This document shows positions 910 to 20,448 of a stretch of 41,785 bases of DNA, piece by piece. Position 1 is the stretch's first letter. Every line of letters begins with the position of its first letter. This stretch comes from Solidesulfovibrio sp. (GTDB lineage: Bacteria > Desulfobacterota > Desulfovibrionia > Desulfovibrionales > Desulfovibrionaceae). The DNA lies in assembly GCF_029978005.1 (NCBI RefSeq), contig NZ_JARKOZ010000140.1, positions 1 through 41,785 on the forward strand, read 5' to 3'. The notes below the pieces were generated by a model that saw only the letters and a program-made list of their open reading frames with translations, was not told the DNA's origin and ran no database searches. A program made the translations under genes and the position numbers.

Positions 910-2784
910 TCAGACCCCGGCCAGGCTGGCGTGGCGCAGCACCCAGAGGTTCCAGAGGAAGAGCCGATGGTCGGCGGTCCCCTGCCGGTGTTCGCGCAGG
1001 CGGGCCTGGCAAAAGGCCGCGTCGAGGCCGGCTTCCAGGAGCGACGGCGCACCCATGGCCAGGGCCCCGTCGGCCAGCCAGCGGCCCACGGGCACGCCGA
1101 AGCCCTGCTTGCGGCGGTAGATGACGCTCTTGGGCAGAAGCGGCTCCAGGGCCTTTTTCAGGATGTACTTGGTCGTGCCGCGCCGGAACTTGAAACGGTG
1201 TGGGATGCGGCGCACGTAGTCGACCAGTTCGATGTCGAGAAAGGGCGCGCGCACTTCCAGGGAATGCATCATGCCGGCCCGGTCGGTTTTGACCAGAATG
1301 TCGTCCTGCAGGTAGAGGCGCGTGTAGAACTCCATGGTCTTGTCCACCATGTCGCGCGACGGGCAGGCGTCGAAGACTTCGACGGCCTCGCTATAGAGTT
1401 CCTCGGGGTCCACGGGTTCGCGGAAAAGCGCGGCGATGCCGTCAGGATCGAGGGGCCCCAGCCAGACCGGATTCCACAGCCGGGCCGGATGGGACAGGCC
1501 GCGCAGGAAGCGGTTGATCTTAAACGGCGTGGCCATGTAACCGTGGCCCACGGGCAACCGGGCGGCCAGGAGCGTCAGGGCCTTGTGCAGGGGCTTCGGC
1601 GCGACGCGGGAATAGGCCTCGGCGGCGCGCAGGGCCTTGAAGGGGTCGTAGCCGGCGAAAAGCTCGTCCGCGCCGTCGCCGCCCAGAGCCACGGTGACGT
1701 GGCGGCGCGTCTCGCGGCAAAGGAGCGCCGTGGGGATGAGCGACACGTCGCCCATGGGCTCGTCGAGACGGCCGACGATCTCGGGCATGAGGCGCAAGGC
1801 GTCGGCCAGGGTCAAGGTGGTCACATGATGGGCCACGCGGCAGCAGGCGGCGGCTTCGCGGGCCTTGGCCGACTCGTCGAAAGCCGGATCGTCGAAGCCG
1901 ATGGAAAAGGCGGCCACGTCCGGGGCGTGGCGGGCGGCCAGGGCGGTCACGGCCGAGGAGTCCACGCCGCCGGAGAGAAAGACGCCAAGGGGCACGTCGC
2001 TCATGAGCCGGCGCGCTACGGCCGCGTCGAGCAGCTCCAGCACGCGCCCGGCCATGGCTTCCTCCCCGCCGCCGGAAACGAGGCCCTCGTCCGGGGCCAG
2101 GCAGAAGGACCAGAAGCGGCGGCGCGAAACGGAGGCGTCGCGCACGTCCACAAGCAGGTTCTCGCCGCCGGGGAGCTTGCGCGTGCCCTCGTACAGGGCG
2201 TTCGGCGCGGGCAGGAAGCCGTAGGCGAAGTACTTGCGCAGCGCCTGCCGGGAAACCGAGGCGTCGGCCAGGGCGGGATGGGCGACGAGGGCGGAAAGCT
2301 CCGAGGCGAAGGCGAAAAATCCCGGCCGGGCGGCGTAGAAAAAGGGCTTCTTGCCGAAGCGGTCCCGGGAGCAGAAGACCACGCCCCGGGGCTTGTCGTA
2401 GAGCGCGAAGGCCCACATGCCGTTAAGGCGCGTCGGCAGGTCCTCGCCCCACTCGCGCCAGCCGTGGAGCAGCACCTCGGTGTCGCTGTGGTCGGTGACG
2501 AAGCGGTGGCCCTTGGCCTCGAGCTCGCGGCGCAGGGGCACGTGGTTGTAGACCTCGCCGTTGTAGGCGGCCACGAGGTCGCCCCCGGCCGTGGCCATGG
2601 GCTGGCCGCCGCCGGCCAGGTCGATGATGGACAGGCGTCGGTGGGCCAGGCCCACGCCGGCGGCCGGGTCCTCGTAGATTCCCTCGCCGTCCGGGCCGCG
2701 CCGGGCGAGCCTGGCGTTCATGGCCGCCAGGGCGGCCCGTGGATCGGCCGCGTCGCCCCCGACGAAGCCGCAGATGCCGCACAC
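910..2784 (-). CDS. asnB: Asparagine synthetase B-like glutamine amidotransferase
   Basis: A 624-residue glutamine-hydrolysing amidotransferase. Cys2 (MCGICG) is the N-terminal nucleophile after Met removal, which fixes the start at a GTG codon at 2784. Residues 28-34 (RRGPDGE), 74-80 (YNGEVYN) and 98-103 fit the glutaminase domain. SGGVDSS at 271-277 is the PP-loop ATP-pyrophosphatase motif of the synthetase domain, which would adenylate a carboxylate and transfer ammonia to it. Length is normal for the family. In surface-polysaccharide loci such enzymes often amidate uronic acids or other acidic sugars rather than make free asparagine, and the glycosyltransferase and methyltransferase neighbours favour that. 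Housekeeping asparagine synthesis remains possible. Confidence 0.85.
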   Translation of the reverse strand: MCGICGFVGGDAADPRAALAAMNARLARRGPDGEGIYEDPAAGVGLAHRRLSIIDLAGGGQPMATAGGDLVAAYNGEVYNHVPLRRELEAKGHRFVTDHSDTEVLLHGWREWGEDLPTRLNGMWAFALYDKPRGVVFCSRDRFGKKPFFYAARPGFFAFASELSALVAHPALADASVSRQALRKYFAYGFLPAPNALYEGTRKLPGGENLLVDVRDASVSRRRFWSFCLAPDEGLVSGGGEEAMAGRVLELLDAAVARRLMSDVPLGVFLSGGVDSSAVTALAARHAPDVAAFSIGFDDPAFDESAKAREAAACCRVAHHVTTLTLADALRLMPEIVGRLDEPMGDVSLIPTALLCRETRRHVTVALGGDGADELFAGYDPFKALRAAEAYSRVAPKPLHKALTLLAARLPVGHGYMATPFKINRFLRGLSHPARLWNPVWLGPLDPDGIAALFREPVDPEELYSEAVEVFDACPSRDMVDKTMEFYTRLYLQDDILVKTDRAGMMHSLEVRAPFLDIELVDYVRRIPHRFKFRRGTTKYILKKALEPLLPKSVIYRRKQGFGVPVGRWLADGALAMGAPSLLEAGLDAAFCQARLREHRQGTADHRLFLWNLWVLRHASLAGV

Positions 2785-2843: not shown

Positions 2844-3800
2844 CTAGGGCTCCTTGCAGTTGCGCGTGCAGTCCACGATGTAGGTCGGCTTGTCCTGGGA
2901 CTCGTGGTAGGTGCGCATGAGGATCTCGGCAATGAGGCCCATGAAGATGGAGATGATGCCGATGAGCATGAACATGACCACGGCCAGGGGCAACGGCGTC
3001 TCGATGAAGCTCTTCCCCAGGAAAAACTTGCAATAGAGCATGAACAGGAAAAAGCCGGCCGAGGCGGCGATGCTGGCCAGGCCGAAGCCGCCGAAGAGGT
3101 ACATGGGCTTCTGGGCGTACTTGTCCAGGAACTTGACGGTCATGAGGTCGAGGATGACCTTGACCGTGCGTTCGATGCCGTACTTCGACTCGCCGTGGAT
3201 GCGCGGGTGATGCGTGACGCCGACCTCGGTGACGCGCGCGCCCTGCCAGGCGGCGTGGATGGGGATGAAGCGGTGCATCTCGCCGTAGAGTTTGACGTCC
3301 TTGATGATCTCGCGGCGGTAGGCCTTGAGCGAACAGCCGTAATCGTGCAGGCGCACGCCGGAGATGATGGAAATGAGCCCGTTGGCCACGCGGCTGGGGA
3401 AATTGCGCTTGATGGGATTGTCCTTACGGTCCTTGCGCCAGCCCGAGACCACGTCGTAGCCCTCGTCGAGCTTGGAGAGCAGACGCGGGATGTCCGCCGG
3501 ATCGTTTTGCAGGTCGCCGTCCATGGGGATGAGGATGTCGCCCCGGGCGGCGTCGATGCCGGCCATCATGGCCGCGGTCTGGCCGAAATTGCGGCGCAGG
3601 TGCACCACGCGCAGGCGCTCGTCGCGACGGGCCAGGGCGTCCACGCGCTCGCGGGTGGCGTCCGTGGAGCCGTCGTTGATGAGGATGACCTCGTAGGGAT
3701 GCCCGAGGGTCGGCAGCACGGCGTCGAGCTTGGCGTAGAGCGGCTCGACGTTGTCCTGCTCGTTGTACAGCGGGATGATGATGGAAAGCATGTCGGACAT
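2844..3800 (-). CDS. GT2 polyprenyl-phosphate glycosyltransferase (DPM1/GtrB/ArnC-like)
   Basis: 318 residues. The GT-A domain has SIIIPLYNE at 6-14, NDGS at 42-45 and the metal-binding DGDLQNDP at 94-101. Two hydrophobic segments near residues 228-250 and 265-290 anchor the C-terminus, as in GtrB/ArnC-type enzymes, which move a sugar from a nucleotide donor to undecaprenyl phosphate on the cytoplasmic face. I chose the ATG at 3800, with GGAA a few bases upstream; an in-frame TTG at 3812 would add four residues. The lipid-linked sugar could feed the GT-C proteins encoded upstream in the same operon. The 143-base gap before it has no clear promoter but holds a TTTCGAAA palindrome. Confidence 0.87.
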   Translation of the reverse strand: MSDMLSIIIPLYNEQDNVEPLYAKLDAVLPTLGHPYEVILINDGSTDATRERVDALARRDERLRVVHLRRNFGQTAAMMAGIDAARGDILIPMDGDLQNDPADIPRLLSKLDEGYDVVSGWRKDRKDNPIKRNFPSRVANGLISIISGVRLHDYGCSLKAYRREIIKDVKLYGEMHRFIPIHAAWQGARVTEVGVTHHPRIHGESKYGIERTVKVILDLMTVKFLDKYAQKPMYLFGGFGLASIAASAGFFLFMLYCKFFLGKSFIETPLPLAVVMFMLIGIISIFMGLIAEILMRTYHESQDKPTYIVDCTRNCKEP

Positions 3801-3943
3801 GGCGGATTCCAATTTCGAAACATAACGTCAGTCATGCTTCAAATACGAAGGATACAGGGCATTCGCTCTTTACTGCCTGGACGCTCGCAAGGGAACCGGA
3901 ATGCCGCTCCCGGCAATTCGAGGTTGCGGTCGCAAGGCGGCCC

Positions 3944-5614
3944 TCACGGCCCGGGCACGGCCGGTTGCGCGCCCGTAAGCGGCCGCAGGTCCACCAGGCG
4001 CACGCCGGGCTCGGGGCTGGTATAGGGGAATTTCTCCCCGTCGAGAAGGGCGAAATTGCCGGCCGTCGCGGCAAGCGCGGCGATGCGGTCGTTGAAGGGG
4101 GCAAAAAGCGGGCCCTTGGCCGCGGCTTCTTTCGTGAGGTCGGCCTCGCGCACCACCATGTGCGTCACGCCGTAGGCCCGGGCGAATTCCAGCACGACGT
4201 CCGCATCCTTGGCGTAATAGGCCTCGGCCTGATGGGCCAGGCGGGGGTAGTACATGGTCCAGTAGCCCTGGCTCCAGGGATGGGCCAATTCGTAGGAGGC
4301 CACGACGTCGCGGCGGCCGAAGGTGAGCACGTCGTCGAGGAGTTCGGGGTTGCCGGCCAGGAGGGCGTCCTTGGGCAGAGCGGCCACGGCCCGGTAGAGG
4401 GCGGCGTCGGCGCGGTAGTCGTAGAGTCCCGCGCCGCTTAAGCGCCACATGCCGACGGCCAGGGCCAAGGCGGCGAGGACGACGCGGCCGCCGACCCGGG
4501 CGAGAAGCCTGTCCAGGGCATGGCGCAGCACTACGGCCAGGGCCAGGGCGTAGAGGAGATTGATGGTGTAGGCGATGTAGCGATCGGGCACGAAGAGCTT
4601 GAGCGCCACGACCCGGGCCAGGACGTAGAAGAGAAGCGATCCGGCCAGGAGCATTGCCGCCGGCCGGCCGGCCCGGGCGGCCAACCCGCGCCAGGGAGCG
4701 CGCCTGGCTCCGACGACGACGAAGGGCAGCAGCACGGCCAAGCTCGCGATGCCGGTAAAAAGCCCGATGTCGAGAAAAAGCCCGATGCCCTCGAAGGGCC
4801 AGTAGACGAGGTCGAAGAAGGGATTGGGCAGGGGGTAGAGTTCCAGTCGGCCGGCGGCGGTGAATTCCGGGCCGATGGCCAGCGTCTCGCGACCGACCAG
4901 GGGGCCGAAACCGGCGGCGGTCAGGGAGTGGTTGAAGGACCAGACCAGGGCGGCCGCCCCGAGCAGGATCAGGCCATGCCATGGCCGGGACGGAAAGGGA
5001 CCGGCGGCGCGGTCCGTGATGCGGGCCCAGAACGCGTCGCAGCAGGCGCAAAAGGCGCACAGCACGGCGATGTAGGGGATGAAAAGCGCCTGGGCCAGAA
5101 GCGTCGCGGCCATGCCTGCGCCCGAGCGCCGCACCCAGGCCAGGAAGAACAGGGCCAGAAGCGGCGGCGCGAAGGAGCGCGACAGGCCGCCGGAGATGTT
5201 TTTGAGGAAATACGGCAGGCAGCAGGCCATGGCCGCGCAGAAATAGCCCAGCCGCCGCCCTTCCATGGCCGCGCCCAGGCCGAAGAAGGCCAGGGCCAGC
5301 GCCACGAAGAGCCCGCCCGTAAGCAGCTTGGAAAAAAGAATGGGGTCGAGGCCCGAGCCCTTGGCGGCGGCGTAGTACAGGGCCTTGAGCGCCAGGGGCA
5401 CGTAGGCGGCGGCGTAGTCGCCAAGGAGATCGGGCGGGTACAGGGCGGGGTCGAGCCAGCGCGCCATCCAGAAGATCTGCTGGCGCACGTCGTCGTTGAT
5501 CACGAAGGGCGAGGCCAGACCCAGGCGGTGGGCCGCCAGGAACACCGCCACGGAGCACAGCGCGACGACGAGCCAATCGCGCCGGGCCACCGGGCCGTCA
5601 GATGGCGCGGTCAT
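3944..5614 (-). CDS. Multi-spanning membrane protein, GT-C glycosyltransferase-like
   Basis: 556 residues with roughly ten or more hydrophobic segments in the first 430 and a more polar C-terminal part (about 430-556). After the first membrane segment, the loop carries NDD at 40-42, the position where GT-C enzymes keep catalytic acidic residues; the layout resembles GT39/GT83-type transferases using polyprenyl-phosphate sugars on the periplasmic side. No family signature is strong enough to name the substrate. Its start overlaps the end of the acyltransferase-like gene by 17 bases, indicating translational coupling. A general membrane protein of unknown function is the alternative. Confidence 0.65.
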   Translation of the reverse strand: MTAPSDGPVARRDWLVVALCSVAVFLAAHRLGLASPFVINDDVRQQIFWMARWLDPALYPPDLLGDYAAAYVPLALKALYYAAAKGSGLDPILFSKLLTGGLFVALALAFFGLGAAMEGRRLGYFCAAMACCLPYFLKNISGGLSRSFAPPLLALFFLAWVRRSGAGMAATLLAQALFIPYIAVLCAFCACCDAFWARITDRAAGPFPSRPWHGLILLGAAALVWSFNHSLTAAGFGPLVGRETLAIGPEFTAAGRLELYPLPNPFFDLVYWPFEGIGLFLDIGLFTGIASLAVLLPFVVVGARRAPWRGLAARAGRPAAMLLAGSLLFYVLARVVALKLFVPDRYIAYTINLLYALALAVVLRHALDRLLARVGGRVVLAALALAVGMWRLSGAGLYDYRADAALYRAVAALPKDALLAGNPELLDDVLTFGRRDVVASYELAHPWSQGYWTMYYPRLAHQAEAYYAKDADVVLEFARAYGVTHMVVREADLTKEAAAKGPLFAPFNDRIAALAATAGNFALLDGEKFPYTSPEPGVRLVDLRPLTGAQPAVPGP

Positions 5615-6737
5615 AGAGCCGAAAGACCTTGTAGCGCTCGCCGCCGTAATCCAGCAGAGTCTTGTTCCACTGCTCCAGGGATTCCGGGATGAGCGAACAG
5701 TCGCAGTACTCCATCTTCGGATGGTTCTCGAGAAAGTTGACGATGATGTTGAGGATGATGGCGTGGTGCAGGCGCTTCCATTGATGGGTCTTGGCCACGC
5801 CCATGATGATGGCCCGGCAGTGGGTGAGCGGCCGCACGCGGCAGTCGTAGAGGAGCTGGAGCTTCTGCCACAGACCGAACTTGCCGTTGAACTTCTTCAC
5901 CGACCGGTTCATGTCCGGCGACACCACGGAAAAGGCCACGATGTCGTCGCCGTCGAGGATCATGCTCTCGAGGTCCGGCCGCACCAGGGGCTGCAAGGTG
6001 ACAAAGATGTCCTCGAACTGCCGGTCGGTCAGGGGGATGTGCCCCCAGTTCTTGCTCCAGATGTCGTTGAAGAGTTCCTTGATCTGGGGACCGCGCTTGG
6101 CGAAGTCGTTGCGCTCGATGGGCAGGATCTTGCAGTTCTGGCGCCTCAGGATGGAATCACGCATCTTGGCCAGCTTCTTGGCGTCCATGCCCGGCTTCCA
6201 GCTGATCTTGTAGGCGTACCAGTCGTAGGTCTTGGCGAAGCCCCAGGAGGTGACGAGGTCTTCGTAATAGGGCGGATTGTGGGTCTGCATCATGCAGGGC
6301 GGGCTGTCGAAACCCTCCACCAACAGGCCCACCTCGTCGTAGATGGAAAAGGACAACGGACCGTGGAGCCGGACCTTGCCCTTGGCACGCACCCAGGCCG
6401 CGGCGGCGTCGAACAGGGCATGAGCCGTCTCGCGGTCGTTCTCGCACTCGAAGAAGCCGAAAAAGCCGGTCTCGGCGTCGTGGTGCTTCTCGTAGAGGCC
6501 GTTCACGTGGGCGCTGATGCGCCCGACGATGCGCCCGCCCCGCTTGGCCAGGAAGTATTCGGCCTGGCCGAACTCGAAGAAGGGGCCCTTTGCCCGGTCC
6601 AGGAAATCCCGCTGCATGGGAATGAGCGGCGGCACCCACAGCGGGTCGTCGCGATAGATTTCCCAGGCGTAGCGGATAAAGGCGTCCAGGTCGGCCCGAT
6701 CGGTCACGGGCGCGACGACGAGTGCGGCGTCGGTCAT
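5598..6737 (-). CDS. GNAT-fold N-acyltransferase-like protein
   Basis: 379 residues, starting at the ATG at 6737, 14 bases after the stop of the HlyD-like gene. The N-terminal half shows features I associate with a GNAT-fold group: DPLWVPPL at 31-38, a beta4-like GRISAHVN at 72-79, FFGFFE at 92-97 and HGPLSFS at 125-131, then NPPYY near 154-158. The C-terminal half looks like a second, diverged acyltransferase-like repeat. Proteins of GNAT type act as the ceramide synthase in Caulobacter sphingolipid synthesis, and an SPT-like enzyme is encoded upstream in the same run, so N-acylation of a long-chain base is an attractive but unproven role. Amino-sugar acylation is the alternative. Confidence 0.65.
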   Translation of the reverse strand: MTDAALVVAPVTDRADLDAFIRYAWEIYRDDPLWVPPLIPMQRDFLDRAKGPFFEFGQAEYFLAKRGGRIVGRISAHVNGLYEKHHDAETGFFGFFECENDRETAHALFDAAAAWVRAKGKVRLHGPLSFSIYDEVGLLVEGFDSPPCMMQTHNPPYYEDLVTSWGFAKTYDWYAYKISWKPGMDAKKLAKMRDSILRRQNCKILPIERNDFAKRGPQIKELFNDIWSKNWGHIPLTDRQFEDIFVTLQPLVRPDLESMILDGDDIVAFSVVSPDMNRSVKKFNGKFGLWQKLQLLYDCRVRPLTHCRAIIMGVAKTHQWKRLHHAIILNIIVNFLENHPKMEYCDCSLIPESLEQWNKTLLDYGGERYKVFRLYDRAI

Positions 6738-6751
6738 GGCGGTATGCCCGG

Positions 6752-7702
6752 CTACTTCTCGGGCTGGATGACGATCTGCCCCTTGAGGCCTTCCTTGAGT
6801 TCCAGGCCCGGGTTGGGGATGGTCAGCTCGATTTCGTAATAGGAAGGCTGCTGCAAGGCGGCGGGCATGGGTGCCCAGGGGATGCGCGACACCGAGGCGG
6901 CGTACTTCTTGCCGGGTATGGAGTCGAAGGTGACCACAGCCGCCATGTTCTCCCTGAGCTTTTGCGCCTCGATCTCGTGGACCTGGGCCCGGATGATCAT
7001 GGGGTCGAGGGAGCCGACCTGGAAGAGCTCGGCTTCCTTGGCCAGCTTGACGCCGTTTCGCAGCTCGGGGTTCATCCACATGACGAAGCCGTCGATGGGA
7101 GCCTTGACGATGCCGTCCTTGGGCACCTTGCCGACGCCGGCGCCCTTGCCGAAGCGGTCCTCGGCCAGTTCCACGCGGTCGTTGAGCAGTTCCTTGGCCA
7201 GGGCGAGCTGCTCGGAAATCGAGGTCTTTTCCTTGCGGAACACCTCGATCTCCTTGTTGTTCATGGCGATGGACTGCTGGGAGGCCATGCTGCGCTGGCT
7301 CATGGCCTCGAGTTCGCGGGCCTTGGCGGAAAGGCGGTCGATCTCCTTGTCGGCGGTGGCCAGCTTGTATTCGAGTTCCCTGATGTTGGCCGACGAGAGC
7401 CTGGTTTTCTCGTCCATGCGGGTTTCCAGGGGGATCTCGTAGGTGGCCAGCACTTCGTTGCGCTTGACCTTCTGGCCGATATGGCCGGAAAGCGCGGTGA
7501 TCTTGGCGTTGTAGGGCAGATAGACCGACAACTTGACCGGACTGTAGAGCTTGCCGGAAAAGCTGATCTCGGCGGGGCGGAAGGAGGCCGGCTGGGCCGG
7601 CTGGGCGGCCGCCGGCGCGGCGGCCTTGTCCTGGGCCGCGCACGGGATCGCGGCGGCCGCGACGAGGCAGCCGGCGGCCACAAGCGGGGCGAAAAACCGC
7701 AT
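6752..7702 (-). CDS. HlyD/MacA-like periplasmic adaptor of an export system
   Basis: 316 residues with a clear signal peptide (residues 1-23, ending CAAQ). A split lipoyl/barrel-sandwich domain flanks a coiled coil at about residues 105-180, and the C-terminal part (LQQPSYYEIELTIPNPGLELKEG, split across about 283-305) is the beta-barrel/membrane-proximal region of the family. It should bridge an inner membrane transporter and the outer membrane channel in the periplasm. The ATG directly abuts the stop of the TolC-like gene (no intergenic base), with GGAGAA inside that gene's end as ribosome binding site. It is a clear paralogue of the adaptor at 28915-29946. With the MacB-type genes upstream it forms a complete tripartite exporter. 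Confidence 0.88.
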   Translation of the reverse strand: MRFFAPLVAAGCLVAAAAIPCAAQDKAAAPAAAQPAQPASFRPAEISFSGKLYSPVKLSVYLPYNAKITALSGHIGQKVKRNEVLATYEIPLETRMDEKTRLSSANIRELEYKLATADKEIDRLSAKARELEAMSQRSMASQQSIAMNNKEIEVFRKEKTSISEQLALAKELLNDRVELAEDRFGKGAGVGKVPKDGIVKAPIDGFVMWMNPELRNGVKLAKEAELFQVGSLDPMIIRAQVHEIEAQKLRENMAAVVTFDSIPGKKYAASVSRIPWAPMPAALQQPSYYEIELTIPNPGLELKEGLKGQIVIQPEK

Positions 7703-9397
7703 CTAGTTGTTCTCCATGACGCTGACGTTGATGTAGCGGTCCTGGAAGTCGCCGGCGATGCCGCGCACCGCCAGCATGGCGACGTCCCGGTCGTACTGCT
7801 TGAGCAGCAAGGTCTGGCGGCTGTCGAGGTAGTCGGCCATGGCCTTGACGATGGCGTCGTATTCCGCCTGGCCGGAGTCGAAGCGGAACTGGGCCTGCTG
7901 GGTGGTGAGCTTTTGCAGCTCCACCGAGGATTCGGCGAACTTCACGTCGGAATTGGCCGAGCGCAGCTTGGCCAGGGCCTGCTGGAACTCGTTCATGAGG
8001 GTGAACTCGATGTTGCGCCCTTCCACGGACAGCTGGGCCATCTTCTTGTACTGGCGGCTGACGTCGCGGCCCTTGGTCCACCAATCGAAGGGGAAATTGA
8101 GCGTCAGGTTCGGATACATGAACGGCAGGCTCGAGGTGTCGTCCTTGTAGGCGTTGCTGCTGCTGTTGAGCGTGGAGATGGAGGTGAACCCGAAGGAGAA
8201 GGTCGGCAGGAAATGGATGTAGGACAGAGCGATGTTCTTGCGCTGCAGCGACTTCTCGTATTCGTGGATGCGCAGCGAGAACGAGTGCTTGCGCAGGGAT
8301 TCGTCGGACACGTTGGCCGGGTTGAAGTCGTCGAGCACCTGCCGGGAGGCTTCGGCGAGGTTCACGTCGACCTTCTGCACAAAGGGCACGCCCATGATGA
8401 ACTTGAGCTCGTCGAGAAGCACGGCCTTGGTGGTCCGCATCTTCTCGCCTTCGGTCTTGGCCATGTTGACCCGGGTTTCGGCGATGCGCACGTCGAGTTG
8501 GGCGCCCTGACCGAGTCCGGTCTTGGTCTTGGAGTACTCCAGGTTCTTCTGGGCCAGTTCCTCTTTCTCCTTGGCCAGCTTGATCATGGTTTCGGTCATG
8601 CCGAGCTGGAGAAAGGTGGTGGCCAGGCGTCGCAGGCCCTGGTCGATGACCTTGAGGTGCGAGAGCACGGCGATGTTGACGAGCTCTTTTTTGGCCTGGA
8701 CGTCGAAGGCGGTCAGAAGCGGGTTCCAGGCCCCGGTGTTGAAGTTCAGGTCGTAGGTCTTGCGGTTGCGGTTGTTGGAGTTGCCGGCGTAGACGGCGTT
8801 GGCCGCGGAAATGGAGTTGGACAGGTTCTGGGTCGGATCGGAGGAAGCGTTGTTGAACACGGACTGGTAGGCGCTGGAGGCCACCGTGTTCTTGTATTCG
8901 GGCAGGCGCAGGTAGAACGTGGTGCTCATGATGATGGTCGGGATGTACTGCGAGTAGGCATCCCCCACGTCCAGGCGCTTGGATTCGATCTCGATGGAGC
9001 TTTTGGTCAGCATGGGCGACTGGGCCAGGGCCACGCGCACGCATTCCTGGAAGTCGGCGGGCGAACGAATGGCGGTCGTGCCCAGGGCGAGCTGGGACGA
9101 GGCCTTGGAAAAGCTCGGCGCCGGCTCGTCGTCGACGGCCTTGGTCGCGGGCGCCGCCGCAGGAGCGGAAGCCGCCGGCGTCGACGCCGGCGCAGGCGCG
9201 GAAACGGCCGTCCCGTTCACCTTGTCCTTGGTGTAGCGGTCCGCCGGACCGGCCATGGCCTGGGCGGCCATGAGCGCCGCCGCCAGGAGAAACACCGCCG
9301 TCTTCGCCAGACGGGCCGAAACGCCCCCCGCCGCGCGGGCAACGACGTCCCCCCCGGACGCCCTTCCCCCCTGTCCGCTGGTCAAATGCCTGGCCAT
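7703..9397 (-). CDS. TolC-like outer membrane efflux protein
   Basis: 564 residues, somewhat longer than typical TolC family members because of an extended N-terminus. A hydrophobic signal segment lies at about residues 30-50 after a long basic leader, then an Ala/Pro-rich linker to about 90. The remainder has the heptad-rich helical pattern of the OEP fold in two halves, with long helices rich in Leu, Lys and Glu and short beta stretches such as SFGFTSIST. It would form the trimeric channel through outer membrane and periplasm. The start at 9397 has a strong GGGGAGGAG ribosome binding site. It sits between the ATPase gene and the adaptor gene, as expected for a tripartite system. Confidence 0.85.
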   Translation of the reverse strand: MARHLTSGQGGRASGGDVVARAAGGVSARLAKTAVFLLAAALMAAQAMAGPADRYTKDKVNGTAVSAPAPASTPAASAPAAAPATKAVDDEPAPSFSKASSQLALGTTAIRSPADFQECVRVALAQSPMLTKSSIEIESKRLDVGDAYSQYIPTIIMSTTFYLRLPEYKNTVASSAYQSVFNNASSDPTQNLSNSISAANAVYAGNSNNRNRKTYDLNFNTGAWNPLLTAFDVQAKKELVNIAVLSHLKVIDQGLRRLATTFLQLGMTETMIKLAKEKEELAQKNLEYSKTKTGLGQGAQLDVRIAETRVNMAKTEGEKMRTTKAVLLDELKFIMGVPFVQKVDVNLAEASRQVLDDFNPANVSDESLRKHSFSLRIHEYEKSLQRKNIALSYIHFLPTFSFGFTSISTLNSSSNAYKDDTSSLPFMYPNLTLNFPFDWWTKGRDVSRQYKKMAQLSVEGRNIEFTLMNEFQQALAKLRSANSDVKFAESSVELQKLTTQQAQFRFDSGQAEYDAIVKAMADYLDSRQTLLLKQYDRDVAMLAVRGIAGDFQDRYINVSVMENN

Positions 9398-9418
9398 GCG
9401 CTCCTCCCCGTCGAGCGT

Positions 9419-10123
9419 TTAACCGTTCAGGTAGCCGTCCGTCAGGACGCATTTTCTCGTGCAATGCTCGGCCGTCATCCCGTCGTGGGTGACCACGACC
9501 ATGGCCGTGCGCGCTTCTTCCGTGATCTTCGTGAAGTACTCCAATACACGCAGGCTGTTTTCCCGGTCAAGCTGCCCGGTGGGCTCATCCGCCAAAATAA
9601 ACTCCGGTTCGTTGACCAGGGCCCTGGCGATGGACACGCGCTGGCGTTCGCCGCCGGACAGGCGGTTGGAGGGCTGGTGGATGCGATGGTCGAGATTGAC
9701 CATGCTGAGCGCCTCCTTGATCCGTTCGGGCCGATCCCGCCGGCGCACGCCGGCGTAGATCAGCGGCAACTCCAGGTTCTCGTACACCGTGGAGTTTTCG
9801 AGCAGGTCACAGGTCTGGAAAACGAACCCGAGCATCTCCCGGCGAAAGATCGCCTGCTGGTCGCGGGTGAGCGAAAGCACGTCCACGCCCGCCACCTTGT
9901 AGCCGCCGGTGGAGGGCGGCTGAAAAAGCCCCAGGATGAAGAGCAAGGTGGACTTGCCCGACCCTGACGGCCCCATGACCGCCACCATCTCGCCCCGGCG
10001 CACGTGCAGGTTGACGTCCTTGAGCACGCGGATGGGTTCCAGGCCGGAGTTGTAGGTCTTGGTCAGCCCGTTGATGTCGATGACGAGTTCGTGGTCGTCG
10101 AAAGCGGGGGTCTGGTTACTCAT
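9419..10123 (-). CDS. MacB/LolD-type ABC transporter ATP-binding protein
   Basis: 234 residues from the ATG at 10123; an ATG at 10135 would add four residues. Walker A GPSGSGKST at 51-59, Q-loop FQ at 102-103, signature LSGGERQ at 155-161 and Walker B ILADEP at 176-181 are all intact, so it should be an active ATPase. The close match to the MacB/LolD group implies mechanotransmission, driving periplasmic extrusion or lipoprotein/lipid handling instead of classic translocation. Its start overlaps the end of the permease gene by eight bases (ATGAGTAA), so the two are probably translated together. Confidence 0.93.
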   Translation of the reverse strand: MSNQTPAFDDHELVIDINGLTKTYNSGLEPIRVLKDVNLHVRRGEMVAVMGPSGSGKSTLLFILGLFQPPSTGGYKVAGVDVLSLTRDQQAIFRREMLGFVFQTCDLLENSTVYENLELPLIYAGVRRRDRPERIKEALSMVNLDHRIHQPSNRLSGGERQRVSIARALVNEPEFILADEPTGQLDRENSLRVLEYFTKITEEARTAMVVVTHDGMTAEHCTRKCVLTDGYLNG

Positions 10124-11369
10124 AGCGCATCGCATCCACCACCTGCATCCGGCTGGCCCGGATGGAGGGATACAGGCCCGCGCCGATGCCGAGCACCGCC
10201 GCGAACACGATGCCCAGGAGCAGGCAGAAAAAGAACAGCCCCTCGGGCGGCCGCGAGTCGAGCATGCGGCTCATGTACTCGATGCCGACGCGCCCGAGGA
10301 TCACGCCGAAGACCGACGAGGACATGGTGACGCAAAGGGCCTCGAACAGGAATTGGTACAGGATGTCGGTGTCCAGCGCGCCCATGGCCTTTTTGAGGCC
10401 GATTTCCCGGGTGCGGCTGGTGACCGTGGCCATCATGATGTTCCAGATGCCGAACCCGCCGAGGATCATTGTCGCCACGATGGAGCAGTAGATGAACAGC
10501 TCCACCCACCAGAAGATGCGCTGCACCTGCTTGAGCGGCTCCCAGGCCACGTTGACCCGCAGGCCCCGGTCGATCTGGTTGGCCTTGACCACGCCGGGCA
10601 CGGCCTTGGCCACCAGGGCCACGTCGTCCCAGGTGGCGCAGCGCACGTAGGCGCTGTAGGGCATGGAGATGCCGACCACCCTGGCCTGGGCCGTGGTGAT
10701 GGGCAGGAACACGAACTGGGCGCGGTCGCCGGCGCGCACGCCGCCCAGGATGCCGACCACGGTGTAGAGGTTGTCGTCGATGGACAGCACCTTGCCGAGC
10801 GCCTGCTGGTCGCTGCCGAACATCTGGCGGGCGAGGTCGGTGCCGACCACGCACACCCTGGCCCCCTCCTCCACGTCGCGTTCGTCGAACAGCCGGCCGG
10901 CCGCGGCGTTGAACGAGAAGACACGCCAGTAGTTGGCCTCGCAGCCCACGAGGTTGAAGCCGAAGAGGCGGTCCTGCCAGGTGGTCAGGGCGCTGGTTTT
11001 GAGCGCCACCTTGGTGATGTCCGTCACGCCCGGAATGCGGCCCAGGGCCTCCAGGGTGCGTTCGCGGAACCACTCCTGGCGCTCCAGCGGCAGCTGCTCG
11101 AACATGACGTTGATGATCGTCGCGCCGCCGAGCAGGTCGAGGTCGTTGTTGAAGTTCTTCTTGAGGTCGTTGCCCATGGTGATGATGACGATGAAACCGG
11201 CCATGCCCAGGGCGATGGAGGCGAGCACGCCGATGTAGCGACGGCGCTTGCGCACGACCTCGCGCACGCTCACGCGCACCAAGTCGTAATAGCGCATCGG
11301 CCCGGAGCCGCGACGCCTGATGCGGTCGAGCTCCGCGACGGTGATCTGTTTTCGTTTTCCTATGGCCAT
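10116..11369 (-). CDS. MacB/FtsX-type ABC transporter permease
   Basis: 417 residues with the four-helix MacB layout: one membrane helix near 45-65, a periplasmic domain to about residue 275, then three helices near 280-300, 325-355 and 375-400. The FtsX-like C-terminal domain carries TSRTREIGLKKAMGA around 312-326, the coupling segment that contacts the ATPase, and ends with SIRASRMQVVDAMRYE, a typical MacB-type terminus. With the ATPase, adaptor and TolC-like protein it completes an exporter whose cargo would be taken from the periplasm. No good ribosome binding site is visible before the ATG at 11369, which follows a short T-run and a hairpin. Confidence 0.9.
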   Translation of the reverse strand: MAIGKRKQITVAELDRIRRRGSGPMRYYDLVRVSVREVVRKRRRYIGVLASIALGMAGFIVIITMGNDLKKNFNNDLDLLGGATIINVMFEQLPLERQEWFRERTLEALGRIPGVTDITKVALKTSALTTWQDRLFGFNLVGCEANYWRVFSFNAAAGRLFDERDVEEGARVCVVGTDLARQMFGSDQQALGKVLSIDDNLYTVVGILGGVRAGDRAQFVFLPITTAQARVVGISMPYSAYVRCATWDDVALVAKAVPGVVKANQIDRGLRVNVAWEPLKQVQRIFWWVELFIYCSIVATMILGGFGIWNIMMATVTSRTREIGLKKAMGALDTDILYQFLFEALCVTMSSSVFGVILGRVGIEYMSRMLDSRPPEGLFFFCLLLGIVFAAVLGIGAGLYPSIRASRMQVVDAMRYE

Positions 11370-11382
11370 AAAAAGATACCGG

Positions 11383-11406
11383 GGGACGTCGTCCTCCGAC
11401 GTTCCC
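11383..11406 (-). terminator. Hairpin between the oxoamine synthase and permease genes
   Basis: GGGACGTCG (11383-11391) pairs with CGACGTTCCC (11397-11406) around a short loop, with one bulge. On the minus strand it is followed after eight bases by five T residues that reach the permease start codon. It may be a weak terminator, an attenuator that lowers exporter expression relative to the upstream gene, or an operator. The T-run is not directly adjacent, so termination is uncertain. Confidence 0.35.
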
Positions 11407-11432
11407 GCGCCTATACCGGAGGCCTTGGCGCT

Positions 11433-12716
11433 TTACAAGTACGAGAGCCTGGAGCGGCCGGCGGCCTCGGGGTCGTCGGAGGCGCAGTCCAGGCCGGGGT
11501 CCTCTGGCAGGTCGCATTCGCGCACGCGGAATTCCCGGGCCAGGCGGTCGAGGACGGACAGGACGACGTCGAGCTGGCGGTCCTCGTGTGTGCTCATGTA
11601 GGCCGTGCGGATCAGCGCCTGTCCGCGCGGCACGGCCGGGTACACCGCCGGCAGGGCGAAGATGCCGGCCTCGAACAGGGCCCGGGAGAACTGGAAGGCC
11701 TTCTCGTCGGAGCCGATGATGATGGGGATGATGGGCGAGGCCGAGCCGCCGATGCGCAGCCCGATGTCCTTGTAGGCCTGGCGCATGCGCACCGTGACCT
11801 CGTGGAGGCGGTCCACCCGCTCGGGCTCGCGCTCCAGGATGTCCAGGCAGGTCAGCACGGCCACGGTGTTGGCGGCCGGCAGGGCGGCGGAAAAAATCTG
11901 CGTGCGCGACTGGTAGCGCAGGTAGCGCAGCATGTCCTCGTCGTCGGAGGCGATGAAGCCGCCGATGGAGGCCAGGGACTTGCTGAAGGTGCCCATGATG
12001 AAGTCGACCTTGTCCGTGATGCGGAAATGGTCGGCCGCGCCGCGCCCGCCCCGGCCGAACACGCCCAGGCCGTGGGCGTCGTCGAGGTAGAAGACGATGT
12101 CGGGATGGGCTTCCTTCACAGCGGCCAGCTCGTCCAGCACGGCCAGCTCGCCGGACATGCTGAAGACGCCCTCGGTGACCAGGAAGACGTCGCCGTCGGG
12201 CCGGGCGGCCTTGGCGGCCTCCACGCGCTGCATGGCCTGGGCGGCGTCGTTGTGGGCGAAGGTGACGAGCCGGGCCCGGGTGTTCTTGATGCCCTCGAAA
12301 ATGCTGGCGTGGTTCTCCCGGTCGCAGATCACGGTGTCGGCCGGGGTGACCAGGACGCCGAGCGCACCCATGTTGGTGCTGAACCCCGTGACGTGGACCA
12401 CGGCCCCGCGCTTGCCGACAAAGGCGGCCAGGCGCTCTTCGAGCTTGTGGTGCAGGACCATGTTGCCGCTCAGGAAACGGGAGCCGCCGGGGCCGGTGCC
12501 CCAGTCGTAGACGGCCCGGGCCGAGGCGTCCATGACCCGGGGGTCGTGGGACAGGCCTAGGTAGTCGTTGGAGCCGATCATGATGAGGCGGCGGCCGTCG
12601 ACCTCGACTTCGGTGCCCCAGGTCTTGGCGATGGGACGGAAGTAGGGGTTGATGCCCAGGGCCGAGATGCTCGAATGCAGGCTATTGAAGTGCTCGCAGC
12701 GTTGGCGAAGTCTCAT
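11433..12716 (-). CDS. Alpha-oxoamine synthase, serine palmitoyltransferase-like (PLP)
   Basis: 427 residues of the PLP-dependent alpha-oxoamine synthase family (SPT, KBL, BioF), which condense an amino acid with an acyl thioester and release CO2. Visible residues: stacking His136 in DRENHAS, cofactor Asp in DDAHG at 212-216 and the Schiff-base Lys246 in TFSKSLASIGG. The SKS...GG form around the lysine resembles bacterial serine palmitoyltransferases more than KBL or BioF, but I cannot separate them without alignment. No biotin or threonine-degradation genes are nearby; an acyltransferase-like gene and an exporter are. Start at the ATG at 12716 with GAGGAAA upstream. The C-terminal tail of about 25 residues is acidic and probably flexible. 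Confidence 0.82.
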   Translation of the reverse strand: MRLRQRCEHFNSLHSSISALGINPYFRPIAKTWGTEVEVDGRRLIMIGSNDYLGLSHDPRVMDASARAVYDWGTGPGGSRFLSGNMVLHHKLEERLAAFVGKRGAVVHVTGFSTNMGALGVLVTPADTVICDRENHASIFEGIKNTRARLVTFAHNDAAQAMQRVEAAKAARPDGDVFLVTEGVFSMSGELAVLDELAAVKEAHPDIVFYLDDAHGLGVFGRGGRGAADHFRITDKVDFIMGTFSKSLASIGGFIASDDEDMLRYLRYQSRTQIFSAALPAANTVAVLTCLDILEREPERVDRLHEVTVRMRQAYKDIGLRIGGSASPIIPIIIGSDEKAFQFSRALFEAGIFALPAVYPAVPRGQALIRTAYMSTHEDRQLDVVLSVLDRLAREFRVRECDLPEDPGLDCASDDPEAAGRSRLSYL

Positions 12717-12844: not shown

Positions 12845-13372
12845 TCAAAGACCCGGCCTTTGCAAGTCTCGGGGGTCGGGGGGGAAGGCGCGGGCCTCGC
12901 GGACGCGGGAGGCGAGCTGGCCGAGAATCTTGCCGAGCGCCAGCCTGGCCCGGCCGATCTGGCCGGGGAAGGTCCGGGTGAAATAGATCTCGTCGTCCGG
13001 GGCGGCCAGTTCCAGGCTGTAGTTGCGCAGCCACTGGCCGCGCTTTTTGCTCCACTCCAGGTAGACCCAGTAGAAGCTGGTGGAGCCGTCGGCGGCCTTG
13101 CAGCGGGCCGCGCCCCAGGCGTAGGCCTCGCCGCCCCGCTCCACCTGGCGGAACTTCAGGAAATCCCAGTCCTCAAAGGTCAGGCCGTCGGAAGCGGTCA
13201 TGCCGCGCGCGGCGATGTCCATGGCCTGGCGGTAGCCGTCCTTGGGGATGCCGGCCAGGCCCATGGCCGGATAGTGCCAGGCCCCGAACCAAATGAGCGT
13301 CCCCGCGGCCAGCACGACCACGGCAAGGCCGGCCCACAGGCCGCGACGCAGAACCCTGCCCGCCCGGCTCAC
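12845..13372 (-). CDS. Membrane-anchored protein of unknown function
   Basis: 175 residues; I do not recognise a family. A basic N-terminus (RAGRVLRRG) precedes one strong hydrophobic segment at about residues 12-32, so the protein is probably anchored in the inner membrane with about 140 residues outside. The outer part is rich in aromatic residues (FEDWDFLKF, STSFYWVYLEW). It starts with GTG at 13372, overlapping the previous stop by four bases (GTGA). It sits between a GT-C transferase and the oxoamine synthase, and could be an accessory factor for either. The 128 bases after it hold no gene I can support. Confidence 0.6.
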   Translation of the reverse strand: MSRAGRVLRRGLWAGLAVVVLAAGTLIWFGAWHYPAMGLAGIPKDGYRQAMDIAARGMTASDGLTFEDWDFLKFRQVERGGEAYAWGAARCKAADGSTSFYWVYLEWSKKRGQWLRNYSLELAAPDDEIYFTRTFPGQIGRARLALGKILGQLASRVREARAFPPDPRDLQRPGL

Positions 13373-13809
13373 GGCCTGCCCTCCCCTGCCGGGGCGCAGC
13401 CCAGGCCCATGCGCCAGCCGGCGGCCTCCAGCCGCCTGGCCCGCTCGAGCTTTTCCCAGGCCCGGACCTCGTCGTCCACGGCGCGCTCGCGCGTGGCCTG
13501 GTCCTTGCGGATGGCCCGCTCAAGGGACTCCTCGGTGACGATGGAATCGGGCGCGGGCTTGTAGACGCCGGCGCGCAACTCGCCCAGGCGCACGCGCACG
13601 GCCTTGTCCGTGGCCTCCAGCACGTCGCGGTGGCGTTCCTTCATGATGGCCGTGTTCTCGCCGTCGTTGACCAGGCCGTTGTAAAAGGACTTCGGGTCGA
13701 CAAGCGTCGCCCCCTCGGGGGTCTTGAGGAAGCCCTTCCACAGGGTGCCGCCGAGAGCCACGAGCAGGAGCGCCCGGACGAGGTTGTCACGGGTGAGAAG
13801 CCGCGTCAT
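13369..13809 (-). CDS. Small membrane-anchored helical protein, unknown function
   Basis: 146 residues with one hydrophobic segment at about residues 10-28 and then a mostly charged, helix-prone region (EATDKAVRVRLGEL, ERAIRKDQATRERAVDDEV) that may form a coiled coil at 90-130. No known domain recognised. The ATG at 13809 overlaps the stop of the GT-C gene by four bases (ATGA), and its own stop overlaps the next gene's GTG, so the three genes are tightly coupled. It might be a scaffold or regulator of the GT-C transferase. Confidence 0.6.
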   Translation of the reverse strand: MTRLLTRDNLVRALLLVALGGTLWKGFLKTPEGATLVDPKSFYNGLVNDGENTAIMKERHRDVLEATDKAVRVRLGELRAGVYKPAPDSIVTEESLERAIRKDQATRERAVDDEVRAWEKLERARRLEAAGWRMGLGCAPAGEGRP

Positions 13810-15464
13810 GGCCGCGCCTCCTTGCGACGCCAGACCTCGAGCTCCTTTTGGGGCTCCTCCACGGGCACGAAATAGTGGTGGTTGGGGTCGTCGGTGCGGT
13901 TGCCGAAGGTCTCGTCGGGAAAGGGCAGCGGCACGCGCTCGTAGTCGCGGGAAAGGTCCATGGCGTCGGTGAATTCCCGGGCCCCGAAAAGGAAACGGTC
14001 GCGGTTGACCCGCACCACGCGCCGCCGCAGCACCCAGTCCGGAACCGTGCCCTCGGGCACGGGCCCTTGCAGGCCGCCCAGGACCCTGAGGCCGGGAACG
14101 GCGAACATGAGCGGCAGGTCGCCGTATTCGGCCAATACGGTCTGGCCGGGCTTGGCGTGGGTCTTGAAGAACTCGCCGATGGCGATGTTGACGTCGGGAT
14201 AGCCGCACACGAGCTCGGTGACGAAGAGCTTGATGGGGAAATTGAGCGAGGTGAGCATGCGGAAATCGTTCTGCCACGGCCGGTTGACGATTTTGAGCCG
14301 TTCCATGGGGTAGACGGCCAGCCAGTTGGTGAAGGCCAAAAGGAGAAAGAGCATGACCGAGGCCGGCCGGGAAAACCCCCACAGCCGGCGCACGCACCAG
14401 GCGAGCAGGATGGCGCACAGGGGGAGCAGATGGGCGATGTAGCGGAAAAACCGCTGAGGCACGATGCCGAGGAAAAGCAGGCTCAAAACGATCAGCACGG
14501 CGGAAAAAAGCACGAACCGCTCGCCGGGGTCGGCCGGGCGCGCCAGGCCCGTGAGAAAGGCGCGCCAGCGCCAGACCAGGGCGGCGGACACGGGCAGGGG
14601 AATGCAGAACATGCACAGGTCGGCGAAATAGAGCATCAGGTTTTCCGGCACGAGCAGCACGTCGAACATGCCGCTTTGCCGGCCGATGCGGTAGAGCAGC
14701 ACGCCCGGGATCACGGCCACGACCACGGTGACCAGGGTCAGAAGCGACAGGCGCTTGACGGCCATGCGCTCGGGAAAGACCAGGGCGGCGGCGACCAGGG
14801 CCGTGGGGGCGAAGCTCAGAAAGAGCAGATAGTTGGCATGAAAAAGCAGCACCATGCCGGCGAACATGGCCAGAAGCGGCGGCCAGCGGCGCTGCCAGTC
14901 GCAAAGAAAAGCGTCCAGGGTCCACAGGACGAACAGCGTGCCCGGGGCGTAGTAGCGGGCCTGGCGGCCGATGAGGAGATAGGGGACGCACAGGGTGAGC
15001 AGCGTGGCGGCGAGCAAGGCCCAGTTGCGGTCGCCGAAATGGCGGCGCACCAAACGGTAGGTCCAGAAGATGGAGAGCAGCGCGGCCAGGGCGAAGGGCG
15101 CGCGGCCGGCGGCGGCATCGAGGCCGCCCACGGCGAAGCCGGCGGCCTGCATGTAGATCTGGATCCAGGGCGACCAGCGCCAGAGGTAGCCGCCGGTCTT
15201 GTCGAACTCGCGCTCCTCTTCCTGTGAGACGACGTTGACCCCGTCGAAGGCGTAGGGCAGGCCGGCGGACAGCACGTTCTTGGCCAGGCAGGCCGTCTCG
15301 GCCTCGTCCTGCCAGAAGGGGCGCTGGCCCAGGTTGTAGAAGAGGAGAAAGGCCGCCAGGGCCAGGACGGCGACAAGGGCCCAGTCCAGGCGGGCGAGAA
15401 GCCCCGGCGCGGCGGCCGGCGGCGCGGCCGGCGCGGGGCCGGCGGTCGTCATGGCGTTTGGCAT
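13806..15464 (-). CDS. GT-C glycosyltransferase, GT39/GT83 (PMT/ArnT-like)
   Basis: 552 residues from the ATG at 15464 (a second ATG at 15452 would remove four). After an Ala/Pro-rich N-terminus, the first membrane helix (about 27-44) leads into RPFWQDEAET, where Asp53-Glu54 match the catalytic DE of ArnT/PMT-type GT-C enzymes. Around ten further membrane segments follow up to about residue 410, then a soluble part of about 140 residues. Such enzymes take a sugar from a polyprenyl-phosphate carrier and add it to a lipid or protein on the outer face of the inner membrane. It is the first gene of the minus-strand run; the Fur-box promoter at 15716-15744 lies about 250 bases upstream. Confidence 0.8.
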   Translation of the reverse strand: MPNAMTTAGPAPAAPPAAAPGLLARLDWALVAVLALAAFLLFYNLGQRPFWQDEAETACLAKNVLSAGLPYAFDGVNVVSQEEEREFDKTGGYLWRWSPWIQIYMQAAGFAVGGLDAAAGRAPFALAALLSIFWTYRLVRRHFGDRNWALLAATLLTLCVPYLLIGRQARYYAPGTLFVLWTLDAFLCDWQRRWPPLLAMFAGMVLLFHANYLLFLSFAPTALVAAALVFPERMAVKRLSLLTLVTVVVAVIPGVLLYRIGRQSGMFDVLLVPENLMLYFADLCMFCIPLPVSAALVWRWRAFLTGLARPADPGERFVLFSAVLIVLSLLFLGIVPQRFFRYIAHLLPLCAILLAWCVRRLWGFSRPASVMLFLLLAFTNWLAVYPMERLKIVNRPWQNDFRMLTSLNFPIKLFVTELVCGYPDVNIAIGEFFKTHAKPGQTVLAEYGDLPLMFAVPGLRVLGGLQGPVPEGTVPDWVLRRRVVRVNRDRFLFGAREFTDAMDLSRDYERVPLPFPDETFGNRTDDPNHHYFVPVEEPQKELEVWRRKEARP

Positions 15465-15744: not shown

Positions 15745-15907
15745 TTTTCGGTTTGCCCGCACTCGTGACGCAGCCGACGTGTTTTTGCCGAAATCGGGGA
15801 ATTAGGTCGTTATCGAGCCAACAGGTCCCTTGGCCGCGCCGGGCGCGGTCGGGAACGCCCCGCCGGCGGGAAACGCCGGCGGCCACCAAAGCGAGGACAG
15901 GATCGCC

Positions 15908-20330: not shown

Positions 20331-20448
20331 GGCGCTCTCCCCCCCCACGGTCGCCGGGCGGTAGCATGTCTGGCGGCCCCAGGGCAAATGGTGTATGGGC
20401 CGGGGACGCGACGCCGTCGCCACCACTTCGCACAAAAGGAAAAGACGC

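Follow-up and report, generated by a model that had tools for sequence, protein, structure and literature searches.

The stretch of DNA analyzed here (41,785 nucleotides, hereafter the window) is the entire contig C82 of a Solidesulfovibrio sp. genome of 4.8 Mb in 224 contigs (G000), and carries on its minus strand a six-gene operon that is likely a unit for the synthesis and export of a sphingoid-type lipid. The operon combines an Spt-like synthase and an acyltransferase related to bacterial ceramide synthase (bCerS), of a kind that we call type A, with the parts of a MacB/HlyD/TolC pump. In the Desulfovibrionaceae, every type-A genome examined is also one in which the two tested genes for lipopolysaccharide (LPS) have no match; elsewhere, the module and LPS genes coexist. 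In the type-A Desulfovibrionaceae, including the genus of the window, the sphingoid lipid may fill the role of LPS, and the pump that of the Lpt bridge. Taken as a whole, the explanation that the operon produces a sphingoid-type lipid, exports it and has it glycosylated, and that lipid and pump replace LPS and the Lpt bridge in these bacteria, has in our judgment slightly better than an even chance of being correct. No description of such an operon, or of LPS loss in Solidesulfovibrio, was found in the titles and beginnings of abstracts listed from the open-licence literature that was searched. Below, G numbers other than G000 denote genomes of relatives or genomes containing the module, and L numbers denote compared loci.

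The co-directional block spans positions 12716–5598, with reading frames and coding-type third-position GC in agreement. In 5′ to 3′ order it encodes an Spt-like alpha-oxoamine synthase of 427 aa (11433–12716), a MacB-type permease of 417 aa (10116–11369; PF12704 and PF02687), an ABC ATPase encoded as a protein of its own and belonging with LolD, MacB and DevA (9419–10135; PF00005), a TolC-like outer-membrane channel (7703–9397; PF02321 in two stretches), a HlyD/MacA-like periplasmic adaptor (6752–7702; PF16576 and PF13437) and the type-A tandem-GNAT acyltransferase (5598–6737). Calculated from the coordinates, the successive intergenic gaps are 63, -20, 21, 0, and 14 bp, and the acyltransferase gene overlaps the next gene (5614–3944) by 17 bp. 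The acyltransferase frame was missed by a GC-based gene caller, and was accepted because it is conserved among relatives. An earlier note on this DNA, made from the sequence alone, had described six tightly packed genes on one strand, and this arrangement is borne out.

The synthase most resembles Spt. Its best PDB chain is the Spt of Sphingobacterium (E = 5e-93), followed by weaker matches to a BioF/Kbl-type enzyme (2e-72), Kbl (1e-62), cysteate fatty acyltransferase (28eh, 5e-60) and BioF (1e-54). In a tree of 59 rows it is nested in an Spt clade of 46 rows (support 100/99), which includes the Sphingobacterium Spt (3a2b) and synthases linked to bCerS-like or CerR-like genes, and which leaves outside E. 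coli Kbl, E. coli BioF and the only other synthase detected in the genome (C117). The pump-linked synthases form a clade of their own in this tree (100/100), and the placement in the Spt clade was repeated in another tree with different relatives. The 59-row tree was derived from an earlier one of 77 rows by dropping 18 long, near-duplicate, truncated or distant rows; the 77-row tree omitted 16 distant loci of 80. Internal stops in rows L118, L122 and L136 were read as X, and HemA and CqsA rows are absent from the trees. Assignment of the synthase to Kbl or BioF was ruled out by three trees, in which it sits in the Spt clade, in line with the SPT-type identity proposed in the earlier note. The lysine motif on which that proposal relied, GTFSKSLAS at the pyridoxal phosphate-binding lysine, is identical to that of 3a2b. 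The residues His136, Asp212, His215, Lys246, and Arg370, to which we presume active-site roles, are conserved in 26 synthases of the module, with one gap each at positions 136 and 370.

The highest-scoring NCBIfam model for the synthase is the Bacteroidetes-type Spt (NF047600), at 400.8 bits against a cut-off of 640, and the other Spt models also stay under their cut-offs (NF047599, 332.5 of 500 bits; NF047603, 233.8 of 670 bits). Models for other enzymes score 330 (a BioF/Kbl-related subfamily), 325 (BioF), and 257 and 310 bits (Kbl). Because the Spt equivalog cut-offs are not reached, we refer to the enzyme as Spt-like rather than as a proven Spt. The condensed amino acid could be one other than serine, for instance cysteate (yielding a sulfonolipid of the capnine type), alanine (yielding a 1-deoxyceramide) or another, so that the lipid would be a sphingolipid analogue. 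The presence of cysteate fatty acyltransferase among the PDB matches agrees with this, as does the reported correlation of 1-deoxy- and sulfono-1-deoxyceramides in the Black Sea with Desulfobacterota and/or Bacteroidota (excerpt of PMC11334938), but the Spt structures score much better, and the residue comparisons made here do not separate the amino acids. We regard a substrate other than serine as rather unlikely.

Loci around the synthase were surveyed in the best 80 of 552 confirmed relatives, to which the following locus counts and identities refer. The nearest named synthases are those of Desulfovibrio sp. UBA12339 (95% identity), Solidesulfovibrio magneticus UBA7700 (87%), Desulfovibrio sp. 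DV (86%), and S. aerotolerans DSM 16695 (85%), which places the genome within Solidesulfovibrio or beside it. Among the 20 homologues with at least 51% identity, the permease is the next recognized gene downstream on the same strand in 19, the exception being a synthase truncated by a contig end; among the 60 homologues with at most 45% identity it is downstream in none, and the distant L136 has one weak permease match on the opposite strand. TolC and HlyD homologues are present in 18, a GT-C gene in 14 and a GNAT gene in 12 of the 20 near loci, and a GNAT homologue lies within the locus in 19 of the 60 distant ones. The order synthase-permease-ATPase is conserved from Desulfobacterota-type genomes to one metagenome-assembled genome (MAG) of the Kiritimatiellae. 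The coupling of synthesis to export, which the earlier note had suggested from the window, is thus a conserved feature of the near homologues.

Eleven lower-scoring synthase loci of relatives (L046–L056, among at least 94 matches) were checked by tree and by their 1.5 kb flanks. Ten of these (28–39% identity) were rejected as module synthases, lying outside the Spt clade and having no permease within the flanks; the lower-scoring synthases, among them those of G015, G020, and G026, fall with Kbl or at other places outside that clade. The eleventh, L051 in G027, is a synthase of the module clade cut by the contig end. Synthases of two archaeal MAGs (L123, Thermoplasmatota; L124, Lokiarchaeota) fell within the Spt-type clade, which may reflect mis-binning; in the Black Sea study, archaeal MAGs are described as lacking Spt-like genes (excerpt of PMC11334938).

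The four transport genes together make up a MacB-type tripartite set by their Pfam domains. Among the best 25 of 188 NCBIfam matches, the ATPase scored 213 bits with LolD, 207 with MacB (cut-off 966) and 165 with DevA (cut-off 296), none of them reaching the cut-off. The permease scored 110 of 966 bits with the MacB equivalog, and a DevC model is not among the NCBIfam matches listed. LptF and LptG gave no match in the part of the window's genes that was scanned. MacB-type pumps are common, and the set could be a general efflux system that came to lie next to the synthase by chance in the history of the operon. Drugs are the cargo of some MacB-type pumps, as far as described in the available part of a review (PMC5985334). 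Against a chance neighborhood stands the order of synthase, permease and ATPase, which is kept in 19 of 20 loci and also in G023 and G028, where the GNAT gene is present yet unlinked to the synthase-pump module. We consider this explanation very improbable.

The acyltransferase had no match in Pfam and NCBIfam scans, and its best PDB sequence match had an E-value of 0.075. An AlphaFold2 model built from 27 sequences (mean predicted local distance difference test score, pLDDT, of 92.3) had as its top Foldseek matches the tandem GNAT proteins 2wpw and 7q3a, at query template modeling (TM) scores of 0.55–0.60 and 12% identity. A function as amino-sugar acyltransferase was considered and rejected, as the likeness to glucosamine acetyltransferase is at the level of the fold (11–12% identity), with no sequence match. 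With proteins of the ceramide-synthase type, on the other hand, the acyltransferase shares 28–37% identity over about 290–390 residues (E 1e-39 to 1e-87). In a tree of 47 rows, 19 rows including the window protein form the type A clade (support 100/99). Its sister is the type B clade of 26 rows (93/96), which contains bCerS-type references from plasmids, and two Chitinophagaceae rows lie outside both. Seven alignment positions distinguish type A from the remaining 28 rows.

The bCerS-type references were chosen by synteny from plasmids, and the tree is to be read with the Caulobacter protein itself absent from it. On the Rubrobacter plasmid, synthase, GNAT and short-chain dehydrogenase/reductase (SDR) genes are consecutive; the Roseomonas plasmid carries genes for an acyl carrier protein, a synthase, LptF/LptG, a GNAT protein and a nucleotidyltransferase, resembling the Caulobacter cluster as published (excerpt of PMC11324152); further references came from Aureispira and Sphingomonas plasmids. 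The genus of the window is represented in the tree by the window, G004, G006, and G007, other members being called type A from 83–90% identity. The homology and the tandem GNAT fold uphold the earlier comparison with ceramide synthases. As to clade membership, the window protein belongs to a sister group, and falls outside the clade formed by the bCerS-like proteins that are linked to CerR or come from Roseomonas and Sphingomonas. From five pattern matches, no viral relatives of the GNAT protein were confirmed. We also observed that proteins of E. coli and of a Pseudomonas plasmid, annotated as YghO (H23, H27) or unannotated (H22, H25), are about 30% identical, over nearly the full length, to the type-B GNAT protein of G033.

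In 59 relatives, a synthase of at least 397 bits was found in 19, and GNAT was present in all 19 of these vs. 1 of the 40 others (G016); among another 15 genomes that carry the module, GNAT occurs in 13 and is missing from G066 and G068. G033, G069, G070, and G071 carry the same synthase-pump module with a type-B bCerS-like protein and an orthologue of the reductase CerR, and G061 has both GNAT types. This pairing of type B and CerR with the module ties the module to ceramide-type chemistry. In the four genomes G033, G070, G071, and G069 (L057, 2–7707; L229; L230; L232), a bCerS-like or CerR-like gene lies near a gene for an Sfp-type phosphopantetheinyl transferase, and in G033, G070, and G071 a type I polyketide synthase gene is also near it, which hints at a polyketide-made acyl chain. 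Similar polyketide synthase pieces lie 8–9 kb away from the Spt-bCerS genes in L116, L117, and L119.

CerR was searched for in 20 of the 59 relatives (10 of the 14 genus members) and in the 15 further genomes, using a profile of 17 CerR-like proteins to which G016 and G033 contributed rows and the other four type-B genomes did not. The profile scored 276–393 bits in all six type-B genomes (G016, G033, G061, G069, G070, and G071). It revealed no CerR orthologue in any of 23 genomes with type A only, where the best score was at most 192 bits; the top score in G000 was 96 bits, and G072 and G073 gave nothing at E ≤ 1e-35. Genomes without GNAT scored 86–147 bits in four cases, 225 bits in G066, and 157 bits in G068. 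In a tree, the top matches of the type-A genomes fell outside the group of CerR references and all type-B matches, a group with support of only 88/69 and with the reference L122 falling outside it. The SDR gene at 20368–21390 was rejected as the CerR of the window, since its product resembles nucleotide-sugar enzymes (NCBIfam LegB 90 and GalE 74 bits, cut-offs unmet) and lies outside the CerR group in the tree. A reductase elsewhere in the genome, which the earlier note had thought worth seeking, did not appear in the form of CerR in G000 or the other type-A-only genomes searched. Judging from these sequences, type A seems to function in the absence of CerR, or else together with a reductase unrelated to it. 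A separate case is G016, a Desulfovibrionaceae MAG of 89% completeness in which the type-B GNAT gene adjoins a CerR-like gene and in which no module synthase was found.

As no CerR orthologue was found in the type-A-only genomes, the pathway could end at an N-acyl aminoketone that is left unreduced. This would suit an acyl-aminoketone that the pump secretes as a signal or as a natural product, for which the products of CqsA and LqsA offer a comparison, and MacB-type pumps are described as secreting small molecules such as pyoverdine (excerpt of PMC5985334). However, the synthase scores far better with Spt in the PDB (5e-93) than with the synthase of CAI-1 (1e-25). The GT-C linkage, the pairing of the module with bCerS-like and CerR-like proteins in type-B genomes, and the co-absence of LPS genes also speak against a released signal, and we consider it improbable.

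The LPS test comprised two genes, those for LpxC (PF03331) and LptD (PF04453). Neither had a match in G000, and both were without a match in all 20 type-A Desulfovibrionaceae genomes, namely the 14 genus members including that of the window, G018, G022, G023, G028, G072, and G073. Completeness values, listed for 18 genomes, are 99–100% in 14 of them, and 96.3% for G000, 69% for G002, 89% for G007, and 98% for G018. Of the 17 other Desulfovibrionaceae genomes among the relatives, 15 have LpxC (not G014 and G016) and 16 have LptD (not G016). The type-B module genomes G033, G069, G070 (titled Pseudodesulfovibrio), and G071 have both genes. Outside the family but within the same order, no LpxC match was obtained in G049, G050, G053, and G057, and the Kiritimatiellae genome without GNAT (G066) has an LpxC match and no LptD.

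Several observations weigh against the overall explanation, from the making and export of the lipid to its replacement of LPS. In eight type-A genomes titled to other groups (G059–G065 and G067), LpxC is present in seven (not G063) and LptD in all; since LPS genes persist in type-A genomes not titled to the family, having the module does not by itself amount to replacing LPS. G014 is without an LpxC match while having LptD and no GNAT, and G016 lacks both LPS genes and yet is type B. G027 has both LPS genes and no GNAT, and at the edge of a contig carries a truncated synthase of the module clade (61% identity); from identical match coordinates, G027 and G068/L110 appear to be the same genome. 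The LPS-negative genomes belong to one family, and may go back to a single ancestral loss, the counts taking no account of kinship. A finished, reduced ceramide is left unexplained by type-A-only genomes without a CerR orthologue. TolC-type channels usually discharge their cargo outside the cell, not into the outer leaflet. Finally, synthase, ATPase and permease reach no NCBIfam equivalog cut-off among the matches listed.

Some of these points bear on another explanation, in which the sphingoid-type lipid is an accessory envelope lipid and the absence of LPS genes goes back to one ancestral event functionally unconnected to the operon. The coexistence of module and LPS genes in the type-A genomes outside the family favors it, and so does G016, which is without both LPS genes and without a detected module synthase. 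It accounts less readily for the lack of both genes in every one of the 20 type-A family genomes, which span at least five genera by database labels, for the retention of LpxC and LptD in nearly all family genomes without type A, and for their retention in the type-B module genomes G033 and G070. We deem an accessory lipid unlikely, though a serious contender. The fuller form of the replacement hypothesis holds that Solidesulfovibrio and several related genera have dropped LPS and Lpt, and that their outer leaflet is built from an N-acyl sphingoid lipid, glycosylated and possibly of the 3-keto form, delivered by the dedicated MacB/HlyD/TolC pump of the operon; in this specific form it is tentative, and falls short of an even chance.

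The glycosylation step is suggested by the gene downstream of the acyltransferase (3944–5614, minus strand), a conserved member of the module whose product had no match in a Pfam scan. Its predicted structure (pLDDT 84.0) had 22 structure matches at E ≤ 0.001, all of them to oligosaccharyltransferase, DPY19 or ALG12, which are GT-C enzymes, at TM scores of about 0.4–0.5; ArnT came next at 3.5e-3. In three large complexes we took the matching chain to be STT3. A second GT-C, PMT_2-like, is encoded upstream at about 13806–15464 on the minus strand (start codon approximate; PF13231, 31 bits), and among the loci compared is found beside the module only in L063–L069 and L094–L099. The proposal that GT-C enzymes flank the operon is supported by the model for the downstream enzyme and by the PMT_2 match for the upstream one. 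A GT2 glycosyltransferase gene nearby (2844–3812, minus strand; nearest NCBIfam model the ArnC type PRK10714, 214 bits, cut-off 529) encodes a candidate polyprenyl-phosphate sugar synthase, and from the donor-lipid scheme of ArnC and ArnT we infer a pairing of GT2 and GT-C. The reading set out in the earlier note is, as a whole, partly supported: the Spt-type synthase, the coupling to the pump and the downstream GT-C stood, the acyltransferase fell in a sister clade of the bCerS type, and no CerR was found in the type-A-only genomes searched. Two of the outcomes that the note had named as refuting it, a synthase grouping with Kbl or BioF and an acyltransferase akin to amino-sugar acyltransferases, were checked and did not come about.

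The pathway would run in four steps. The Spt-like enzyme, judged by its clade and conserved residues, would join an acyl thioester to an amino acid, which is most likely serine, and so form a 3-keto long-chain base. The type-A GNAT protein would, by its family, N-acylate this base in the cytoplasm. Permease, ATPase, adaptor and TolC-like channel would, given their conserved linkage, act as a tripartite pump of the MacB/DevBCA kind, taking the lipid out of the inner membrane and across the envelope. The GT-C enzyme would glycosylate the lipid on the periplasmic side, the nearby GT2 possibly making the polyprenyl-phosphate sugar donor. The observations from which this scheme is built are gene content, linkage, phylogenies, predicted folds, and the lack of detectable LpxC, LptD, and CerR.

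Other genes of the window surround the module. An asparagine-synthase-type amidotransferase gene (910–2784, minus strand; PF00733 and PF13537) is a co-directional neighbor that adjoins the module in L063–L069, L095–L097, L099, and L106. Two small proteins without a Pfam match are encoded on the minus strand upstream of the synthase (12845–13372 and 13369–13809), both conserved in L063–L069 and L094–L099. A methyl-accepting chemotaxis protein gene (15830–17749, plus strand) separates the operon from surface-polysaccharide genes at 17974–40256, which include a NodC-like GT2, a Wzy/O-antigen-ligase-type gene (21906–23513), a Wzx/MurJ-type flippase gene (29980–31440) and a further GT2. As neither LpxC nor LptD was detected in this genome, the attachment site of such a polysaccharide is in question. 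An LpxL/HtrB-type acyltransferase gene (19356–20456, minus strand; PF03279, 62 bits) is present despite the lack of an LpxC match, and its product may act on another lipid.

Caulobacter is described as having Spt and bCerS in the cytoplasm and CerR in the periplasm, so that lipid export is needed (excerpt of PMC11087976). The path of bacterial sphingolipids to the outer membrane is called unknown in the available part of another study, in which LptC/F/G-like proteins are the Caulobacter candidates (PMC11324152). The window shares with this pathway a synthase of the Spt clade and an acyltransferase homologous to the bCerS type (excerpts of PMC11087976; PMC11324152), and departs from it in that the acyltransferase belongs to a sister clade, set apart by seven positions specific to its type, and in that no CerR orthologue was found. 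Where the Caulobacter cluster has LptC2/F2/G2-like transport candidates (PMC11324152, in part), the window operon has a MacB/HlyD/TolC set.

DevBCA-HgdD, which also has a MacB-type permease, a separate ATPase, a MacA-like adaptor and a TolC-like channel, is described as exporting heterocyst glycolipids, and a glycolipid is likewise the proposed cargo here (excerpts of PMC6161253; PMC5985334). Unlike that system, the window operon joins synthase and pump, and its ATPase stays below the DevA cut-off. The lipid maker of the DevBCA-HgdD system is a polyketide synthase, not an Spt. With MacAB-TolC and LolCDE, the window pump shares the MacB_PCD and FtsX permease architecture and the ATPase group, but MacB is fused as one protein and LolCDE has no TolC channel (excerpt of PMC5985334); the window pump also scores well below the MacB and LolD equivalog cut-offs. 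Sphingomonads have a sphingolipid in place of LPS (excerpts of PMC11087976; PMC11324152), and the window case would be similar. It differs in that the organism belongs to another phylum, that no CerR was found and that a candidate dedicated exporter is encoded in the same operon.

The operon provides an alternative candidate route for a sphingolipid to the outer membrane, one that is physically linked to the synthase, and it occurs in named sulfate reducers such as S. aerotolerans DSM 16695. Type A represents a ceramide-synthase-like clade that occurs without the usual reductase. If the pump and the lipid also replace LPS and Lpt, this would be a further mode of LPS-free diderm life, and the operon may show how sulfate reducers seemingly without LpxC and LptD build their outer membrane.

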